Source: a virus
Reading direction: 5' to 3' (one strand)
DNA: 59,441 nucleotides
IMG/VR virus record: IMGVR_UViG_3300030104_000577
Location: 1 to 59,441 of that record
Under the pieces are notes generated by a model. That model had not been told where the DNA came from and ran no database searches. It saw nothing but the letters and a program-made list of their open reading frames with translations. Below, piece after piece: positions 17,465-58,694 of the stretch; positions within the stretch are counted from its first letter, which is position 1; every line of letters begins with the position of its first letter. The translations under genes and the position numbers were made by a program.

Positions 17465-17775
17465 GTAGTGATCCCATATGTAAAAAATTTTTGCAAAATA
17501 TTTTTTATAACTAGACTTCTGACCATTAGTGTATTACACTATTGTCGAAAAGTAAAATTTTATTGGGATGTATCTCGAAAACCGACACACCACGCTTCGC
17601 GTAGTATGGTGTCTCAAAAGGGGGGTGGGGGGGTGGACCAGCAACCGTAGGCAGGAGGACCGAATTACTGAGCTACAGTTACAGCTGGCGCCAACCCCTG
17701 ATCTCACCACCACCAGCCAACAGCCAGCCAACAGCGAGCCTGAGCGACCACCCAGCCAGCCCGAGCCACCAGCGA

Positions 17776-17827
17776 GCCACAGCCAGCCACCACCGAGCAC
17801 TGCCCAGCCAGCCACAGCCAGCCACCA
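17776..17827 (+). repeat. 17-bp direct repeat in the GC-rich island
   Basis: GCCACAGCCAGCCACCA occurs at 17776-17792 and again at 17811-17827. Shorter CAGCCA words fill the space around both copies. This is consistent with slippage-driven expansion of a GC-rich simple sequence. Confidence 0.8.
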
Positions 17828-17862
17828 GTGACCCCGACCCACCAGCCAGTGGTCTCGAGCAT

Positions 17863-17966
17863 GAGCACCAGTTCGACTACGAGCACCAGCCCGAGCACCA
17901 GTCCGAGCACCAGTTCGACTACGAGCACCAGTCCGACTACGAGCACCAGCACCAGCCCGAGCACCA
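17863..17966 (+). repeat. Tandem 12/18-bp repeats (GAGCACCAG units)
   Basis: Six consecutive units of 18 or 12 bases plus a partial seventh, all starting GAGCACCAG: 17863, 17881, 17893, 17905, 17923, 17941 and 17959. The 18-base form is GAGCACCAGTTCGACTAC or a near variant; the 12-base form lacks the last six bases. All lengths are multiples of three, which would keep a reading frame open (Ser-Thr-Ser-Pro type on plus, Leu-Val type on minus). No start signal supports translation. Confidence 0.85.
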
Positions 17967-18003
17967 TAAAAAAAGATTAAAAAAAGTCAAATAAATACTT
18001 TAC

Positions 18004-18097: not shown

Positions 18098-18334
18098 ATG
18101 TCAAAAACTACTAAAAAAGCTAAAGTCGCTGTAAAAGTTAACTTAGGCGGTTTACCAGAAAACGCGGTTTATACTAAAACTGGTAAAATAGCTAGGGCGG
18201 TTCATAACGCTGAGCGTCACGAGTTATATAACGGTAAAACGGTCAAGGAAATATTAAGTATCAAACCTACCGTTATGACCCCAGCGGATATTAAGTATGA
18301 TGTAAAAGTAGGGTTCATCACCTTAGAAAGTTAA
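18098..18334 (+). CDS. NAERH-family small protein, copy 1 (unnamed family)
   Basis: This 78-residue basic protein is one of only two convincing genes on the plus strand. It shares with the product of 18559-18789 the blocks TGKIARA.HNAERHE, NGKT.KEIL and ADIKYDVK.GFIT, and the same core is the C-terminal domain of the 23768-24253 product. The Lys-rich N-terminus (MSKTTKKAKVAVK) may bind nucleic acid. AAAGGA precedes the ATG. A strong terminator follows 14 bases after the stop, so it is a monocistronic unit. Function unknown. Confidence 0.75.
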   Translation: MSKTTKKAKVAVKVNLGGLPENAVYTKTGKIARAVHNAERHELYNGKTVKEILSIKPTVMTPADIKYDVKVGFITLES

Positions 18335-18558: not shown

Positions 18559-18789
18559 TTATTCAATAGTTATAAACCCCGTTTTTACATCATACTTGAT
18601 ATCTGCGAGGGTCATCCTAGTAGGTTTAAGCGATAAGATCTCTTTTATAGTTTTACCGTTAAACTCTTCGTGACGTTCCGCGTTATGAGTAGCGCGGGCT
18701 ATTTTCCCAGTAGCGGTATAAATACCAGCGGGAGCGAACGGTCCACAGTTCACTTTTACTTCTTGAGGTTTAGTAGCTTTTTTAGCCAT
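18559..18789 (-). CDS. NAERH-family small protein, copy 2 (unnamed family)
   Basis: This 76-residue protein uses the ATG at 18789 with AAGGTG 8 bases upstream. It is a close paralogue of the product of 18098-18334, sharing TATGKIARATHNAERHEEF-like and GKTIKEILSLKPT-like segments and ending in DIKYDVKTGFITIE. The two genes converge with their terminators 150 bases apart, so gene, leader and promoter were duplicated in inverted orientation. Function is unknown. The basic N-terminus (MAKKATKPQEVKV) is variable between copies. Confidence 0.75.
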   Translation of the reverse strand: MAKKATKPQEVKVNCGPFAPAGIYTATGKIARATHNAERHEEFNGKTIKEILSLKPTRMTLADIKYDVKTGFITIE

Positions 18790-18875
18790 TATAATCACCT
18801 TTATTTAGGGTTATTTAGTAGTAGATTTATTAGTATAATCACCCTATTAATTAAACTAATGACTATATCATATTA

Positions 18876-23767: not shown

Positions 23768-24253
23768 CTATTTATAGAGCATAAACTCCTTATCAAGATC
23801 GTACCTGATATCTTTAGCTTCTACTCTAAGAGTTGCTAGAGCTTCCCTTACTGTCATACCATCTAAGTCGCTATGACGCTCTGCGTTCTCTTTAGACCTA
23901 GCCATTTTTGCTGGGTTATTCACTATAACCCGATCCATGTCTAGACCTTTTACTGCTACTTTATCTTTCGATTTTTTTACAGCGGTTTTAAGGTTAGTCT
24001 TCGTTACTTTTAACTTCCCTATCTTAGCTGTATTTTTAAGTGCTGCTTGTTTCATTGCACCCATTTGCTTACCCTCCTCTGGCTCTCGCCAAGTTATATT
24101 ACGGTTGTTGTACATATGGAAGACTCGTTTAACCTCACCTTCCTCTTGATACTCAGCGGTAAATTGTACGGAGAGCAGAGATTTGACGGTAGCTTCATGC
24201 CATAAATCTTTGTGACATGTTACTAATACTTTATCTGTTCTCGGTGCTCTCAT
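23768..24253 (-). CDS. NAERH-family protein with N-terminal extension, copy 3
   Basis: This is a 161-residue basic protein. Residues about 108-161 repeat the core of the small proteins at 18098 and 18559: PAKMARSKENAERHSDL, DGMTVREAL and KDIRYDLDKEFM. The first 65 residues form a separate beta-rich domain (VLVTCHKDLWHEATVKSLL, VFHMYNNRNITWREPEE), joined by a Lys-rich linker. The fusion suggests the NAERH core is an independent module. Function unknown. It has its own upstream element at 24271-24312. Confidence 0.65.
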   Translation of the reverse strand: MRAPRTDKVLVTCHKDLWHEATVKSLLSVQFTAEYQEEGEVKRVFHMYNNRNITWREPEEGKQMGAMKQAALKNTAKIGKLKVTKTNLKTAVKKSKDKVAVKGLDMDRVIVNNPAKMARSKENAERHSDLDGMTVREALATLRVEAKDIRYDLDKEFMLYK

Positions 24254-52987: not shown

Positions 52988-53398
52988 TTACCCCTCTACC
53001 ATCATATCTTTTAATCTAGTTGCTCTTGGTCCAACTTGCCTAGCCCATTTTGAATCCAACATTTGTACAGCAGCTTCTTCCCAATCTGCTACTTCCATGG
53101 CTGCTAGAAATTTTTTAAAATTCAATAGTCTACTGAGACCTAAATTGAAACACATATTAATCATCACTCTTTTTCTGACATCAGACAAGTTACTATACCA
53201 ATTAAAAGTTCTTTCTAATTCAGACACACAATTATCTATATCATTAGCTAATAAAAAATCAGACTCAGATTCACTTATACCTACGTCTTCTAAATTTCTC
53301 CCTACCCCAATAGTCAGTTTATCCGCGGAGCAGTGATATGGTTTGAATTTAACACCTTCATCTCTTTTAAGTTCTTCAATTAACTTCTGTAAGTTCAT
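52988..53398 (-). CDS. Endolysin, T4-lysozyme-like muramidase (GH24)
   Basis: In this 136-residue protein the catalytic region reads LKRDEGVKFKPYHCSADKLTIGVGRN with Glu14 as the acid; a Cys stands where T4 lysozyme has its Asp, as in many phage GH24 members, and Thr29 follows. Further on MINMCFNLGLSRLLNFKKF and WARQVGPRATRL match the family. It has no signal peptide, so a holin is needed. It lies just downstream of the spanin pair. Confidence 0.85.
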   Translation of the reverse strand: MNLQKLIEELKRDEGVKFKPYHCSADKLTIGVGRNLEDVGISESESDFLLANDIDNCVSELERTFNWYSNLSDVRKRVMINMCFNLGLSRLLNFKKFLAAMEVADWEEAAVQMLDSKWARQVGPRATRLKDMMVEG

Positions 53399-53771
53399 CT
53401 TTTTTATCCTCTGCGGTTGGGTCGTTATCTCTGTAGTATTCTATTATAGCTAAATTTTGCCTGATGTAACGCTTTATATCTGCTATGTTATTTGACAAAT
53501 TTTCATAACCTTGTGCAGTGAGAGAGTAGTAAGCAACAGCAGGTGCGTCACCTTTATCGTAGTCTGTTATATACTCTCTCATAGTTTCTGGGTTTAGTAT
53601 TTTCCATTTAATCTCAGCAGGTGAGACTGCTTCTGGTAAAGGTGGATGATATAATGGCGCAGGTTTTTGGACCGTAATAATTTCTACTGGATCAACTTTA
53701 GGTGGTTTTGATAATACACTTGAACAACCAGTTGTAAATAATAGAAAACTAATTAGTAATATTCTCATCAA
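53376..53771 (-). CDS. Outer-membrane spanin-type lipoprotein (Rz1-like)
   Basis: The 131-residue protein has a short signal sequence with a lipobox (LLFTTGC, Cys16), followed by a Pro-rich segment VQKPAPLYHPPLPEAVSP and a helical C-terminus. A Pro-rich lipoprotein overlapped by a membrane-anchored coiled-coil gene is the two-component spanin pattern that fuses inner and outer membranes at lysis. It is longer than lambda Rz1. It overlaps both neighbours by 23 bases. Confidence 0.65.
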   Translation of the reverse strand: MMRILLISFLLFTTGCSSVLSKPPKVDPVEIITVQKPAPLYHPPLPEAVSPAEIKWKILNPETMREYITDYDKGDAPAVAYYSLTAQGYENLSNNIADIKRYIRQNLAIIEYYRDNDPTAEDKKDELTEVN

Positions 53772-54171
53772 ACTGCCTCGGATTAGTTAAATCTACTAAC
53801 TCTCTGTTTACTCTAGCTGTACCTTTATTGACAATATTTTCTACTAAACCACTTTTAGCTATTGCTAAACTATTCAGGTCATGTCTAGCGAAAGTGTTTC
53901 TTAACTTACTCACTTCTTTACGAGCTTCGTTACTCTGTTCAGTCAACTCTGTTATCTTTTGTTGACTTATTTTTTCTTTATCTAATTGATTCTGTAACTC
54001 TTTGTTACTTTGCTCTACTGATTTTTTCAGTATCTCTTGATTAGTTATAGCTACGTTTAACTCTATGTTTAGTTTATCTATTTTTGAGTTCTGCATACTG
54101 ATATACATAGCACTTCCACCCAAACTTGCGATTAGTAAACCACCTAAGATTATGTTTGTTTGTATGCCCAT
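53749..54171 (-). CDS. Inner-membrane spanin-type protein (Rz-like)
   Basis: In this 140-residue protein one N-terminal membrane helix (IILGGLLIASLGGSAMYIS) is followed by a periplasmic coiled coil from about 28 to 95 (KSVEQSNKELQNQLDKEKI) and the segment FARHDLNSLAIAKSGLVENIVNKGT, which recurs in marine phage Rz-like proteins. It pairs with the lipoprotein at 53376-53771 (23-base overlap). Confidence 0.7.
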   Translation of the reverse strand: MGIQTNIILGGLLIASLGGSAMYISMQNSKIDKLNIELNVAITNQEILKKSVEQSNKELQNQLDKEKISQQKITELTEQSNEARKEVSKLRNTFARHDLNSLAIAKSGLVENIVNKGTARVNRELVDLTNPRQFDENITN

Positions 54172-54202: not shown

Positions 54203-55285
54203 TTAACTACCTTGTTTAATATTGATGATTGATGAACTGCCACCATTGACACTCACTTGATTTACTTTACCCTCTTGTTCTATGCGAATGCTGTACGAAC
54301 CGTCTTTTGATACCTGCATCTGTAAGCTATCTTCAATCTGTCTTATAAATTTAACTTCACTATCGGATACAAAAGTGTTTATTTGTGTATCACTATCGTA
54401 TCCTACACTTGTGCCTCTTACTCCATCAGCAGATAAAGCTCTGTCTGCTTTACTAAGTTCATCAACCTCTTGTATAACATCTAGTAAATCTTCTAAAAAA
54501 TTTGCAGCGAGATAATCTATATCAAGCTCTGTGTATTCTAGATCATCTTGTTCTAGTTCATCTGTATCAAGTTCATCAAACTCTAAAAAATCTATATCCA
54601 GTATGTTTTCTGTATTAGCAGTAGCTTCTTGCTCACCCTCTAAATCTCTAGCTTGAGGAGGATTTACTATCAACATGTTATCAATCATGTCTACTGTTAA
54701 ATCAAGAATAACAGCAGGAGTGGGTGAAGTTTCAAAATTATACACAGTTGTTGCTTCATATGGTCTATTAAGTATCACCTGCCCTAAAGCAGTATCTACA
54801 ACTATCTCACCACTAGCGTCTCCATTCTCGTCTGGTAATAATATCACAAGAGTTTCGCCAGTTTCTTTTACCGTAAGTGTGAAATCTGTGCCTCTGATTC
54901 CTATCGTAGCTGAATTAGTTCTGACTGTTATATTATCTTTAGGTATGCGTGGCTTTTTACTAGATATAAATCTACCAGTTCCTTTGACAAAATTCAAAGC
55001 CATACTTGATTTACTAGGGTTAGGATCAAATACAAACTCATCAATTATCACATTGCTGTGTTCTGTAAGACGTATAGTTGTCTCATCTCTGAACGTAACA
55101 CCCATACGACCGTTAGCTGTTTCCAGTTTGTCCATAGAGTTTAATGAGAAATTAATCTCACTTTCGTATGGTTTGTCTCGTACTACTCTTGTGTTACCGT
55201 TTAACTCTGTGATATTACCTATATCAACATCCAACGCTTGTGCCTTGATCGTCTTGGTTGACACACACAGTGCCATTACTACCAT
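54203..55285 (-). CDS. FecR-domain secreted protein with curlin-like C-terminal repeat
   Basis: The ATG at 55285 gives 360 residues; an upstream ATG at 55402 would overlap the curlin-like gene by 179 bases and lacks a ribosome site. A hydrophobic segment (LLMVVMALCVSTKTIKAQA) serves as signal peptide. The FecR core is visible as VTFRDETTIRLTEHSNVIID and TVRTNSATIGIRGTDFTLTV. An Asp/Glu-rich linker follows, then a tail with IEQEGKVNQVSVNGGSSS and INIKQGS, two curlin-style N/Q strands. It may anchor or nucleate the curlin-like protein. Both ends point to export. Confidence 0.65.
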   Translation of the reverse strand: MVVMALCVSTKTIKAQALDVDIGNITELNGNTRVVRDKPYESEINFSLNSMDKLETANGRMGVTFRDETTIRLTEHSNVIIDEFVFDPNPSKSSMALNFVKGTGRFISSKKPRIPKDNITVRTNSATIGIRGTDFTLTVKETGETLVILLPDENGDASGEIVVDTALGQVILNRPYEATTVYNFETSPTPAVILDLTVDMIDNMLIVNPPQARDLEGEQEATANTENILDIDFLEFDELDTDELEQDDLEYTELDIDYLAANFLEDLLDVIQEVDELSKADRALSADGVRGTSVGYDSDTQINTFVSDSEVKFIRQIEDSLQMQVSKDGSYSIRIEQEGKVNQVSVNGGSSSIINIKQGS

Positions 55286-55955
55286 CAGAAGTAATGCGTA
55301 ACCAGTCGTTGTCTTGTGTAGACTGTTGGTCAACAGCAAACGATCTATTACTACCGTCGTGCTCAAGTTTAAAATACCCACCTGCATATCCGTCTCCGTC
55401 ATAATTCACAGTATTACTATCACCATCAAGATCTATGTAGTTTGTACCTGAGTCTACATCTAAATCAATATTAACTGTGTTACCTGAACCTTGTACAATA
55501 GTGTCCACATCTGCGCCACTAGCTAAAGCATTTGTAGCTAAATCTAGTGTCATAGTGTTAGTTGATCCATCCACGTCCACATTAACATTACTGTTATCTG
55601 CCGAGTTCGAGTTGCCAGGATCTACTTGTATCGTAAAACTATTTGTATCTCCATCAAAATCGAATATACCTGTAAATGTATCTGCATTGATATCGCCTAA
55701 CATCTTGTTATTATTACCTATTTGATTTACATCTAAAGTCATAGTTGCGCCATCAAGATCAAATGCAGTCATACTACCATGTGCAGAGTTTAACCCACCT
55801 ATGATGTTACCACTTCCTAATTGCTCAAGATCTATATTTGCTGTAGCACCAACTTGATCTACATAGATTTCGTTATCATCTGCATTTAAAGCTACAGACA
55901 ATACTAATAAACCCAATAGTAACGCTAACGCTGTTCTGTTAAATTTACTCATCAT
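55224..55955 (-). CDS. Curlin-like secreted repeat protein
   Basis: This 243-residue protein has a signal peptide (TALALLLGLLVLSVALNA, cleavage near 25), then repeats with the curlin pattern V.Q.G..N: YVDQVGATANI, LEQLGSGNIIGG, LDVNQIGNNNKM and DTIVQGSGNTVNI. The protein is rich in Asp, Asn and Gly (SNTMTLDL, DGDSNTVNYDGDG) and ends in a short Cys pair (VCVNQDDQGTSVGC). It would be exported through CsgG and may form amyloid strands. The start overlaps the csgG stop. Confidence 0.65.
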   Translation of the reverse strand: MMSKFNRTALALLLGLLVLSVALNADDNEIYVDQVGATANIDLEQLGSGNIIGGLNSAHGSMTAFDLDGATMTLDVNQIGNNNKMLGDINADTFTGIFDFDGDTNSFTIQVDPGNSNSADNSNVNVDVDGSTNTMTLDLATNALASGADVDTIVQGSGNTVNIDLDVDSGTNYIDLDGDSNTVNYDGDGYAGGYFKLEHDGSNRSFAVDQQSTQDNDWLRITSDGSNGTVCVNQDDQGTSVGC

Positions 55956-56745
55956 AATTCCAGTACCCCTTTTTTACACCTATTTTAATTATTTCTAACA
56001 CTCCTTCTTCTATCGCTTTTTGTAACGCTATTGATGTGCTTTCATTCGCTGACACACCCCCCTCTACCTCTATGAGTCTTGTCCCTTGATCTATAAATCG
56101 AAATAAATCTTGTGACAAACCTACAGATAAAACATTTTTAGAAGCTAGTGTTTCTATCAATACTTCACCTGTGGATACAGATACTAATCGTAAACTAATC
56201 GTTATCAGATCCTCTCTGTACTCTTTACTAGAGCCGATGCCGAGGTAACGAGCACCTAAACCACCACTCTTTATATTAGTATCATAACTCAAAACTCCTC
56301 CCTGTACTAAAAGTCCAGCAAAAAGTAATGGTTTTACATTACTGTCTTCTTCAAAACTTTCTCTAGTAGAGCGTATTATTTGTCTCTCTTTAGTTAAACT
56401 TTCTAACCCTACCCTTTCTACTACTTTAAAAAATTCGCCCTCTGCAGCGTGTTTTAAAGCTCTTATAAGATACGCTTCTGGAGCTTGTGTAATAGCTGTA
56501 CTAAACAAAGCAAACTCACTGTTGCTTTTCCTTTGACCTGTGTGATCTCTAAAACTGTTAGGATATATAGCTATCACTGGTTTTCTTTTAGAAGGTGGTG
56601 TATTTTTCAACTCTTCTGACTGTAAAGAAAGTATAGAAGAGCTCTGTATAACTACGTGTGGGAAACCACCACCCTCTAATAAATTTTTAGACGCGCAACT
56701 AGAAAGTAAAATCGCCAATAGGCACAGTAATAACTGTCGTCCCAC
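55945..56745 (-). CDS. csgG: CsgG, curli secretion channel lipoprotein
   Basis: A GTG at 56745 gives a compact lipoprotein signal (GRQLLLCLLAILLSSC) and 266 residues, near the 277 of E. coli CsgG; a longer ATG frame would overlap csgF by 101 bases. Family segments: AIYPNSFRDHTGQRK, AYLIRALKHA, ERVGLESLTKERQIIRSTRE, the signature IKSGGLGARYLGIGSS, ITISLRLVSVSTGEVL and FRFIDQGTRLIEVEGGVSANE. CsgG forms a nonameric outer-membrane pore. All expected regions are present, so a working channel is likely. Confidence 0.9.
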   Translation of the reverse strand: MGRQLLLCLLAILLSSCASKNLLEGGGFPHVVIQSSSILSLQSEELKNTPPSKRKPVIAIYPNSFRDHTGQRKSNSEFALFSTAITQAPEAYLIRALKHAAEGEFFKVVERVGLESLTKERQIIRSTRESFEEDSNVKPLLFAGLLVQGGVLSYDTNIKSGGLGARYLGIGSSKEYREDLITISLRLVSVSTGEVLIETLASKNVLSVGLSQDLFRFIDQGTRLIEVEGGVSANESTSIALQKAIEEGVLEIIKIGVKKGYWNYDE

Positions 56746-57139
56746 CTGTCTCGTCTGTGATCGTGAGAGAGATAGTATCGTTTTCAACAATGTATTCAAT
56801 AGTGTTGCCCTCTAGTGTTAACTTACCTTCTGTTTGTTTAGTTTCTCCAAACAACTGTTCTACCATTTGTCTGCTTAGTTGCGCATAGATCCTACTCTCT
56901 AAATTTCTTATAAATCTAGCGAGTGTAGTATTATCTGCGTCTCTAGCTAATTCATCTTTGTATGCTTCTATCTCATCTTTTAATGCCTGTTTTCTAGTAG
57001 ACTCTTGATTCTCTATCGTAAGATAATGACTAGATGTATTTATCCCAGAAAAGCTAGGACTTTTAAATTTAAAAGACATTTCGTCAGAATATACTGGAAA
57101 CGATAATAACAATATTAAATATTTAATCTTTCTTATCAT
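56699..57139 (-). CDS. csgF: CsgF, curli assembly factor
   Basis: The 146-residue protein has a signal peptide (KYLILLLSFPVYS, cleavage about 18) and the mature start DEMSFKFKSPSFSGIN, matching the CsgF N-terminus that plugs into the CsgG constriction. Then HYLTIENQESTRKQAL, a middle helix, and the C-terminal beta domain IEYIVENDTISLTITDETGG. In curli systems CsgF couples secretion to surface nucleation. Overlap with csgG implies co-translation. Confidence 0.85.
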   Translation of the reverse strand: MIRKIKYLILLLSFPVYSDEMSFKFKSPSFSGINTSSHYLTIENQESTRKQALKDEIEAYKDELARDADNTTLARFIRNLESRIYAQLSRQMVEQLFGETKQTEGKLTLEGNTIEYIVENDTISLTITDETGGTTVITVPIGDFTF

Positions 57140-57380
57140 CTTTTAATCTGTTTTCCTCTTTTAACTCTAAAACAGTATTTACCTTTTGTTGTAATCTTAT
57201 CATATCTTGGTCTAATAAACGTAATTGATCAGTAAGTCTAATAATAGTTACCTTCATTTCCTGTACAGCAGGATCTATTTTCTTTGTGATTGTTTGCCAA
57301 ACAAAGAAAACAAAATAACCCAGCCCTACAACCATCACTATCGGGAAGCCAAACTCTGAAACTAATTTTACTATATCCAT
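57123..57380 (-). CDS. Membrane protein with coiled coil, paralogue A
   Basis: This 85-residue protein has one N-terminal span (GFPIVMVVGLGYFVFFVW) followed by a cytoplasmic or periplasmic coiled coil (VTIIRLTDQLRLLDQDMIRL). It resembles the product of 57546-57842 in layout and in the words GxPxxxxxxxxYFxF and DMIRxxxxV. Holin-like or BhlA/XhlA-like proteins look similar. It shares stop/start bases with neighbours; co-expressed with csgF. Confidence 0.5.
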   Translation of the reverse strand: MDIVKLVSEFGFPIVMVVGLGYFVFFVWQTITKKIDPAVQEMKVTIIRLTDQLRLLDQDMIRLQQKVNTVLELKEENRLKDDKKD

Positions 57381-57562
57381 TATTTGAACTTCTTCTGTAT
57401 ATATTTAATACCTGCATATATAGATAAACCATATACTGCAAACAAAGTTAGACTACCAAACACAATCAGGTAATCAGAGGGATATAGGTATATTAGTCCG
57501 AAAAGACCGTCTACAACTGCTTCTGCGTCTCCGACTGGAGGTAGATTAATCTCGTCTTGCAT
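57380..57562 (-). CDS. Small single-span membrane protein
   Basis: The 60-residue protein has an acidic N-terminus (MQDEINLPPVGDAEAVVDG), one or two hydrophobic stretches (LIVFGSLTLFAVYGLSIYAG) and a basic tail KKFK. Located between the two paralogous membrane/coiled-coil genes. A holin or holin partner is possible from size and topology. Confidence 0.45.
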   Translation of the reverse strand: MQDEINLPPVGDAEAVVDGLFGLIYLYPSDYLIVFGSLTLFAVYGLSIYAGIKYIQKKFK

Positions 57563-57842
57563 CTATCTTCCCGTCTTCTACGAAATTTTCAGCTCTAGCT
57601 ATTCGCTCTAAATCAGGGGATAGATTCAATGCACTTGATACGCTAGTGTCTATGCGTATCATGTCGTTGTTCATTGTTGCTGCTCTGGTGATAAGCATTT
57701 TAGATATAGCTTGTACTGTATTAATTTCACCTACTAAAGCATCCATCATTTGCTTCATAACGAGAAATATGAAATAAGCCATTATTAAACCACCAGCAAC
57801 TGGTAGTCCTAAATCAGCTATTAATGCAAAACCTTGTTCCAT
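57546..57842 (-). CDS. Membrane protein with coiled coil, paralogue B
   Basis: This 98-residue protein has an N-terminal span (GLPVAGGLIMAYFIFLVM) and an extended helical region with MNNDMIRIDTSVSSALNL. The pairing with the 57123-57380 product suggests duplication. It overlaps its neighbours by 17-22 bases. It may take part in lysis or serve the curli export locus; the sequence does not discriminate. Confidence 0.5.
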   Translation of the reverse strand: MEQGFALIADLGLPVAGGLIMAYFIFLVMKQMMDALVGEINTVQAISKMLITRAATMNNDMIRIDTSVSSALNLSPDLERIARAENFVEDGKIDARRD

Positions 57843-58508: not shown

Positions 58509-58694
58509 TTATACAAACTTTGCAAAAACTATAGATGCTAAAATGAATGGATATACTGCCCATATCATATTTTCTAGTTTTTTGAATTTAGCAGAACCTT
58601 CATCAAGACGTCTTTCGATATACTCGTATCGTATGGCACATTCTCTTTCATGCGCTTCTATTTTTGACAAAGAATCTTTTACTGTTGGCATCAT
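58509..58694 (-). CDS. XhlA-like small membrane protein
   Basis: The ATG at 58694 overlaps the previous stop (ATGA). In the 61-residue product the first 40 residues are a coiled coil (DSLSKIEAHERECAIRYEYI) and the last 18 a membrane span (NMIWAVYPFILASIVFAKFV). Coiled coil plus C-terminal span is the layout of XhlA/hemolysin-type holin-associated proteins. Confidence 0.55.
   Translation of the reverse strand: MMPTVKDSLSKIEAHERECAIRYEYIERRLDEGSAKFKKLENMIWAVYPFILASIVFAKFV

Follow-up and report, generated by a model that had tools for sequence, protein, structure and literature searches.

A pelagiphage locus that probably encodes a type VIII (curli) secretion module with a curlin-like substrate and a FecR-domain partner

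What would a phage gain from a curli-type secretion system encoded beside its lysis genes? The question is raised by the virus record IMGVR_UViG_3300030104_000577, whose 59,441 bases constitute the window analysed here. The original prediction placed a curli-type (type VIII) amyloid secretion locus at 54203-57139, and four overlapping open reading frames encoding CsgF, CsgG, a curlin-like protein and a FecR-domain protein have been confirmed there on the minus strand, with spanin and lysozyme genes, identified by PHROGs and Pfam, directly downstream (Table 1). CsgG, CsgF and FecR all score above the curated Pfam cut-offs. Start positions required correction: fecR probably begins at an ATG at 55285 or 55276, inside the curlin-like gene, and not at 55402, and it is uncertain whether csgG begins at a TTG at 56799 or at a GTG at 56745 preceding a compact lipoprotein signal. 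The earlier reading had also overlooked three genes for small membrane proteins that lie immediately upstream, at 57123-57842. We regard it as reasonably probable from sequence that the locus is a pelagiphage type VIII (curli) secretion module, in which CsgG and CsgF secrete the curlin-like protein.

Table 1 Genes of the curli-type module and the adjoining lysis genes
Feature	Position	Strand	Match or character
TM1, 98 aa	57546..57842	-	phrog_18771 7e-22; one N-terminal hydrophobic segment, charged helical-looking tail
TMx, 60 aa, membrane protein with one segment, encoded between TM1 and TM2	57380..57562	-	found in some relatives only
TM2, 85 aa, TM1 paralogue	57123..57380	-	phrog_18771 6e-26
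CsgF	56699..57139	-	PF10614 3.3e-18; signal peptide and conserved N-terminal segment FKFKSPSFSG
CsgG, outer-membrane lipoprotein pore subunit	55945..56799	-	PF03783 2.1e-47
Curlin-like exported repeat protein, putative secreted substrate	55224..55955	-	signal peptide, ~22-residue repeat, strongly acidic
Exported FecR-domain protein with curlin-like C-terminal tail	54203..55285	-	PF04773 4e-11
Rz-like inner-membrane spanin (neighbour)	53749..54171	-	phrog_739 4.5e-13
Rz-like outer-membrane spanin, lipoprotein (neighbour)	53376..53771	-	phrog_812 2.6e-15
Phage lysozyme, endolysin (neighbour)	52988..53398	-	PF00959 1.9e-10

The large terminase shares 61% identity with those of Pelagibacter phage HTVC027P and 023Pt_psg01, and the DNA polymerase and portal proteins agree; by these sequences, the phage is a member of the HTVC023P-type pelagiphages, which infect SAR11. 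The record also encodes a thymidylate synthase and an HMUDK_hel-domain protein, which resemble the DNA-hypermodification pair known from clades V, VIII and IX, where most T8SS modules had been found (Wittmers et al. 2022, PMC9599517, cited here and below from the available part of its text). CsgF/CsgG clusters have been reported in pelagimyophages (PMC7029224), and HTVC023P-type podoviruses have been described with a CsgF-CsgG-CsgA/B-FecR module that has one or two 'histidine kinases' ahead and, in some cases, another curlin and an adenylate cyclase behind it (PMC9599517). The present module, from the same phage group, shares the CsgF-CsgG-curlin-FecR order and the one or two small genes ahead. 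The prediction of a phage-borne curli-type locus stands, but a curlin-like substrate linked to a FecR partner is not a new observation as had been supposed, because the set and its order are already found in PMC9599517 and in the records of HTVC008M and Melnitz.

The Pelagibacter phage HTVC008M and the Methylophilales phage Melnitz (PMC7029224, PMC9004378) have the same TM1-TM2-CsgF-CsgG-curlin-FecR order, and their CsgG proteins are 45% and 40% identical, respectively, to that of this phage. Both also have two genes that this phage is without, one for a further curlin-repeat protein and one for an adenylate cyclase of the CHASE2 type. Some of the modules described in PMC9599517 likewise have a second curlin and an adenylate cyclase, the latter being frequent downstream but not universal; the present genome has no second curlin-like gene, and the adenylate cyclase profile PF00211 has no match in the record. 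The paper on Melnitz says that csgA and csgB are missing (PMC9004378). However, two curlin-repeat proteins are annotated in the Melnitz-3 record as deposited, and both exceed the Pfam cut-off; these apparent curlin genes contradict the published statement. The adenylate cyclase of HTVC008M (L002:11796-13631) carries a CHASE2 sensor domain, and FecR stands beside CHASE2 kinases in a Burkholderia biofilm operon (PMC5192318).

The pore subunit appears complete, as predicted. The Pfam match of CsgG spans 206 of the 210 profile positions, the protein aligns over its full length with solved E. coli CsgG structures, hairpin region included, and the lipobox cysteine is present (LLSSC). The residues of the conserved CsgF segment are invariant in 16 relatives, and this segment is the counterpart of the E. 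coli CsgF segment that is seated in, and binds, the CsgG neck. The gate/chaperone CsgE has no PF10627 match anywhere in the record; it is also missing from the pelagiphage modules described in PMC9599517.

The curlin-like protein of this phage, the putative substrate, has no Pfam match, Curlin_rpt included, and a PDB fold search with its model gave nothing at E <= 0.001. The AlphaFold2 model is all-beta past the signal peptide (pLDDT 81), and the nearest predicted viral folds are labelled 'Curlin associated' (TM 0.63-0.73, E 4e-5 to 1e-4). The conserved pattern recurs with periods of 11 and 22 residues (z 5.5 and 4.0, values that none of 500 shuffles reached), which is what a curlin-type two-strand repeat would predict, and the Melnitz counterpart scores 26.0 bits with Curlin_rpt, above the cut-off of 20.7. 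The secreted product could instead be a non-amyloid beta-solenoid adhesin or coat, perhaps bound to divalent cations. This would suit the composition of the mature protein, which has a net charge of -33 over 218 residues with 16% Asp, as well as the missing Curlin_rpt match, but the repeat period and the close relatives are curlin-like, and we consider a non-amyloid product unlikely.

The FecR-domain protein has an export-signal-like segment at its N-terminus. FecR is the sole domain matched in the Pfam scan, with no match to DUF4880, the cytoplasmic N-terminal domain that precedes the membrane segment in FecR anti-sigma regulators. The curlin-like tail noted in the original prediction is confirmed: it is similar to the end of a curlin repeat, and its Q, GG, I and Q positions do not vary among 18 relatives. 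Such a tail appears not to have been described before; the available part of PMC9599517 makes no mention of it. A literature search found no paper linking csgG, FecR and curlin by name. The structure model of the protein is of too low quality (pLDDT 52) to reveal how the tail folds, and the PDB fold search from it yielded nothing usable. We infer that FecR is associated here with the fibre and is not an iron regulator. In an earlier proposal, the pore serves nutrient or cofactor uptake into the infected cell and FecR is an iron-linked regulator (PMC7029224, PMC9599517). An ungated pore could indeed pass small molecules, and a FecR domain is present. However, uptake would make CsgF, the curlin-like protein and the curlin-like tail of FecR all superfluous, and neither the export signal of a FecR protein that lacks a DUF4880 match nor the missing adenylate cyclase fits it. 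We therefore hold uptake to be very improbable.

TM1 and TM2 belong to a family whose matches among 50,697 phage records number six, all in curli-bearing phages. No match to the family was obtained on the stretches examined of the curli-less HTVC023P, HTVC027P and 023Pt_psg01. The position and copy number of these genes fit those of the 'histidine kinase' (HK) genes of PMC9599517, as far as the available text describes them, and the two are probably the same genes under a wrong label. Kinase domains (HisKA/HATPase) were not found at E <= 0.1 in any of 16 family members, which at 85-116 residues are too short to hold one, and the assignment as histidine kinases was rejected. Five of the 16 members match the holin family phrog_4898 weakly (1e-3).

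Synteny was examined in 121 phage-type records, namely this phage, two isolates, a set of viral contigs and four phage contigs that had been binned into genomes. The gene profiles were made for this analysis, and counts were restricted to sufficiently long contigs. CsgF was found in 112 of 112 phage loci, the curlin-like gene in 107 of 107, FecR in 91 of 91 and the TM family, in one or two copies upstream of CsgF, in 105 of 105; the adenylate cyclase was found in 25 of 63. Thus, the predicted four-gene set recurs invariantly wherever the contig reaches. A second scan found CsgG relatives in at least 586 viral contigs. Pairwise dN/dS values of the module genes are mostly 0.01-0.2 with a few higher; those of the curlin-like gene are mostly 0.06-0.14, with a top value of 0.37 (against L005), and TM1 gives 0.40 against its paralogue in L012. 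All genes sampled are under purifying selection, which indicates that the module genes are kept functional. Equal conservation of the substrate gene would not be expected if the pore were kept for uptake or lysis alone.

Bacterial csg operons resemble the phage module in having CsgG, CsgF and an exported repeat substrate. For comparison, 36 csg loci of Pseudomonadota, in stretches of roughly 11-19 kb, were collected by a CsgF search, because a contig scan with CsgG had given four loci, all of them phage-type modules in binned genomes. These four, binned as Maricaulis, Flavobacteriaceae, Rhodobacteraceae and Pelagibacter (L055, L056, L057, L058), look like phage contigs. Neither FecR nor the TM family was found near the csg genes in any of the 36 bacterial loci. 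The phage genome, for its part, is without CsgE. In 12 of the 36 genomes, which were scanned with the Pfam FecR profile, FecR occurs elsewhere but never within 10 kb of csgF, the nearest lying at about 17 kb (G898). Acquisition of FecR and the TM pair along with a bacterial curli operon was accordingly rejected. The 29 phage CsgG sequences form one clade apart from the 36 bacterial ones (support 100/99). Of 197 genomes belonging to the same family as a Pelagibacter MAG, only two have CsgG, both times in a phage-type module, so the module would bring a function that the host lacks. A 1,499-base record labelled Salmonella phage (OR851715.1) encodes a CsgG that is 39% identical to the query and may be a host csgG.

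A lysis role, close to one proposed for the curli genes of Melnitz (PMC9004378) and to the envelope-weakening idea of the original prediction, has to be weighed against secretion. CsgG and CsgF would permeabilise the outer membrane, TM1 and TM2 would act as a holin pair, and together with the spanins and lysozyme they would time or ease lysis. The spanin and lysozyme genes adjoin the module downstream, the TM family has its weak holin match, and 21 of 33 loci have a lysozyme gene no more than 5 kb away. This last count led to the rejection of lysozyme adjacency as a fixed feature, and the HTVC008M and Melnitz stretches examined carry no lysozyme annotation close to the module. Moreover, TM1 and TM2 are confined to curli phages, unlike general holins, and the window contains another holin-like candidate, encoded at 58509 (67 aa), with weak similarity to one from the curli-less HTVC023P. 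A pore-only role also leaves the purifying selection on the ever-present curlin-like and FecR genes unexplained. The idea gained no added support from this analysis; a lysis role is possible, although rather improbable, and it explains less than secretion does. The invariant pairing of pore and substrate, the absence of FecR and the TM family near csg genes in the 36 bacterial loci and the invariant FecR tail, all read from sequence comparison, favour curlin-like secretion over a pore-only or lysis role.

In the secretion model, the module would be a form of the curli system peculiar to phages, and the host Sec machinery would export its products late in infection. CsgG would form the pore in the outer membrane, CsgF would occupy the neck, and the acidic curlin-like repeat protein would exit by this route and assemble into a fibre or coat on the surface of the infected cell. 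The FecR-domain protein, likewise exported, would probably be a periplasmic or surface partner of the fibre via its curlin-like tail, acting as nucleator, anchor or delivery factor. The paralogous inner-membrane proteins TM1 and TM2 are part of the module. The phage may gain a superinfection barrier or the holding together of sister cells; superinfection defence and aggregation have been proposed earlier (PMC9599517, PMC7029224). Secretion, assembly, the roles of FecR and TM and the benefit to the phage are all inferred. Against the model stand the lack of an own Pfam curlin or PDB match, of CsgE and of a second curlin-like gene, the poor FecR model, the neighbouring lysis genes and the Melnitz culture, in which no clumping was seen (PMC9004378). 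More tentatively, the module may be a distinct and self-contained curli variant, in which FecR with its fused curlin tail and the dedicated inner-membrane pair replace CsgE and CsgB, and which coats infected cells of curli-less hosts with an acidic fibre adapted to seawater.

Going by the contig count, curli modules carried by phages are very frequent in the ocean, and infected cells would gain secretion machinery that is apparently missing from their hosts. That pore and substrate invariably occur together speaks for secretion of the curlin-like protein as the conserved function, which bears on the question of fibre, uptake or lysis. Two points of the literature are amended, namely the 'histidine kinase' label, which is probably wrong as far as the available text of PMC9599517 goes, and the statement that Melnitz is without a curlin gene. 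The FecR tail and the TM pair offer two specific handles for experiments.

Several observations were made elsewhere in the window. Two similar small genes in opposite orientation, at 18098-18334 (+) and 18559-18798 (-), have no Pfam or PHROGs match, and the end of 23768-24253 looks related to them. Low-complexity tandem repeats with units of 10-42 bases occupy 17700-17970, within the 5-kb block of highest G+C content. At 123-2546, an 807-aa tail-fibre-like protein is rich in NTTG/NTA repeats and ends with a Peptidase_S74 chaperone.
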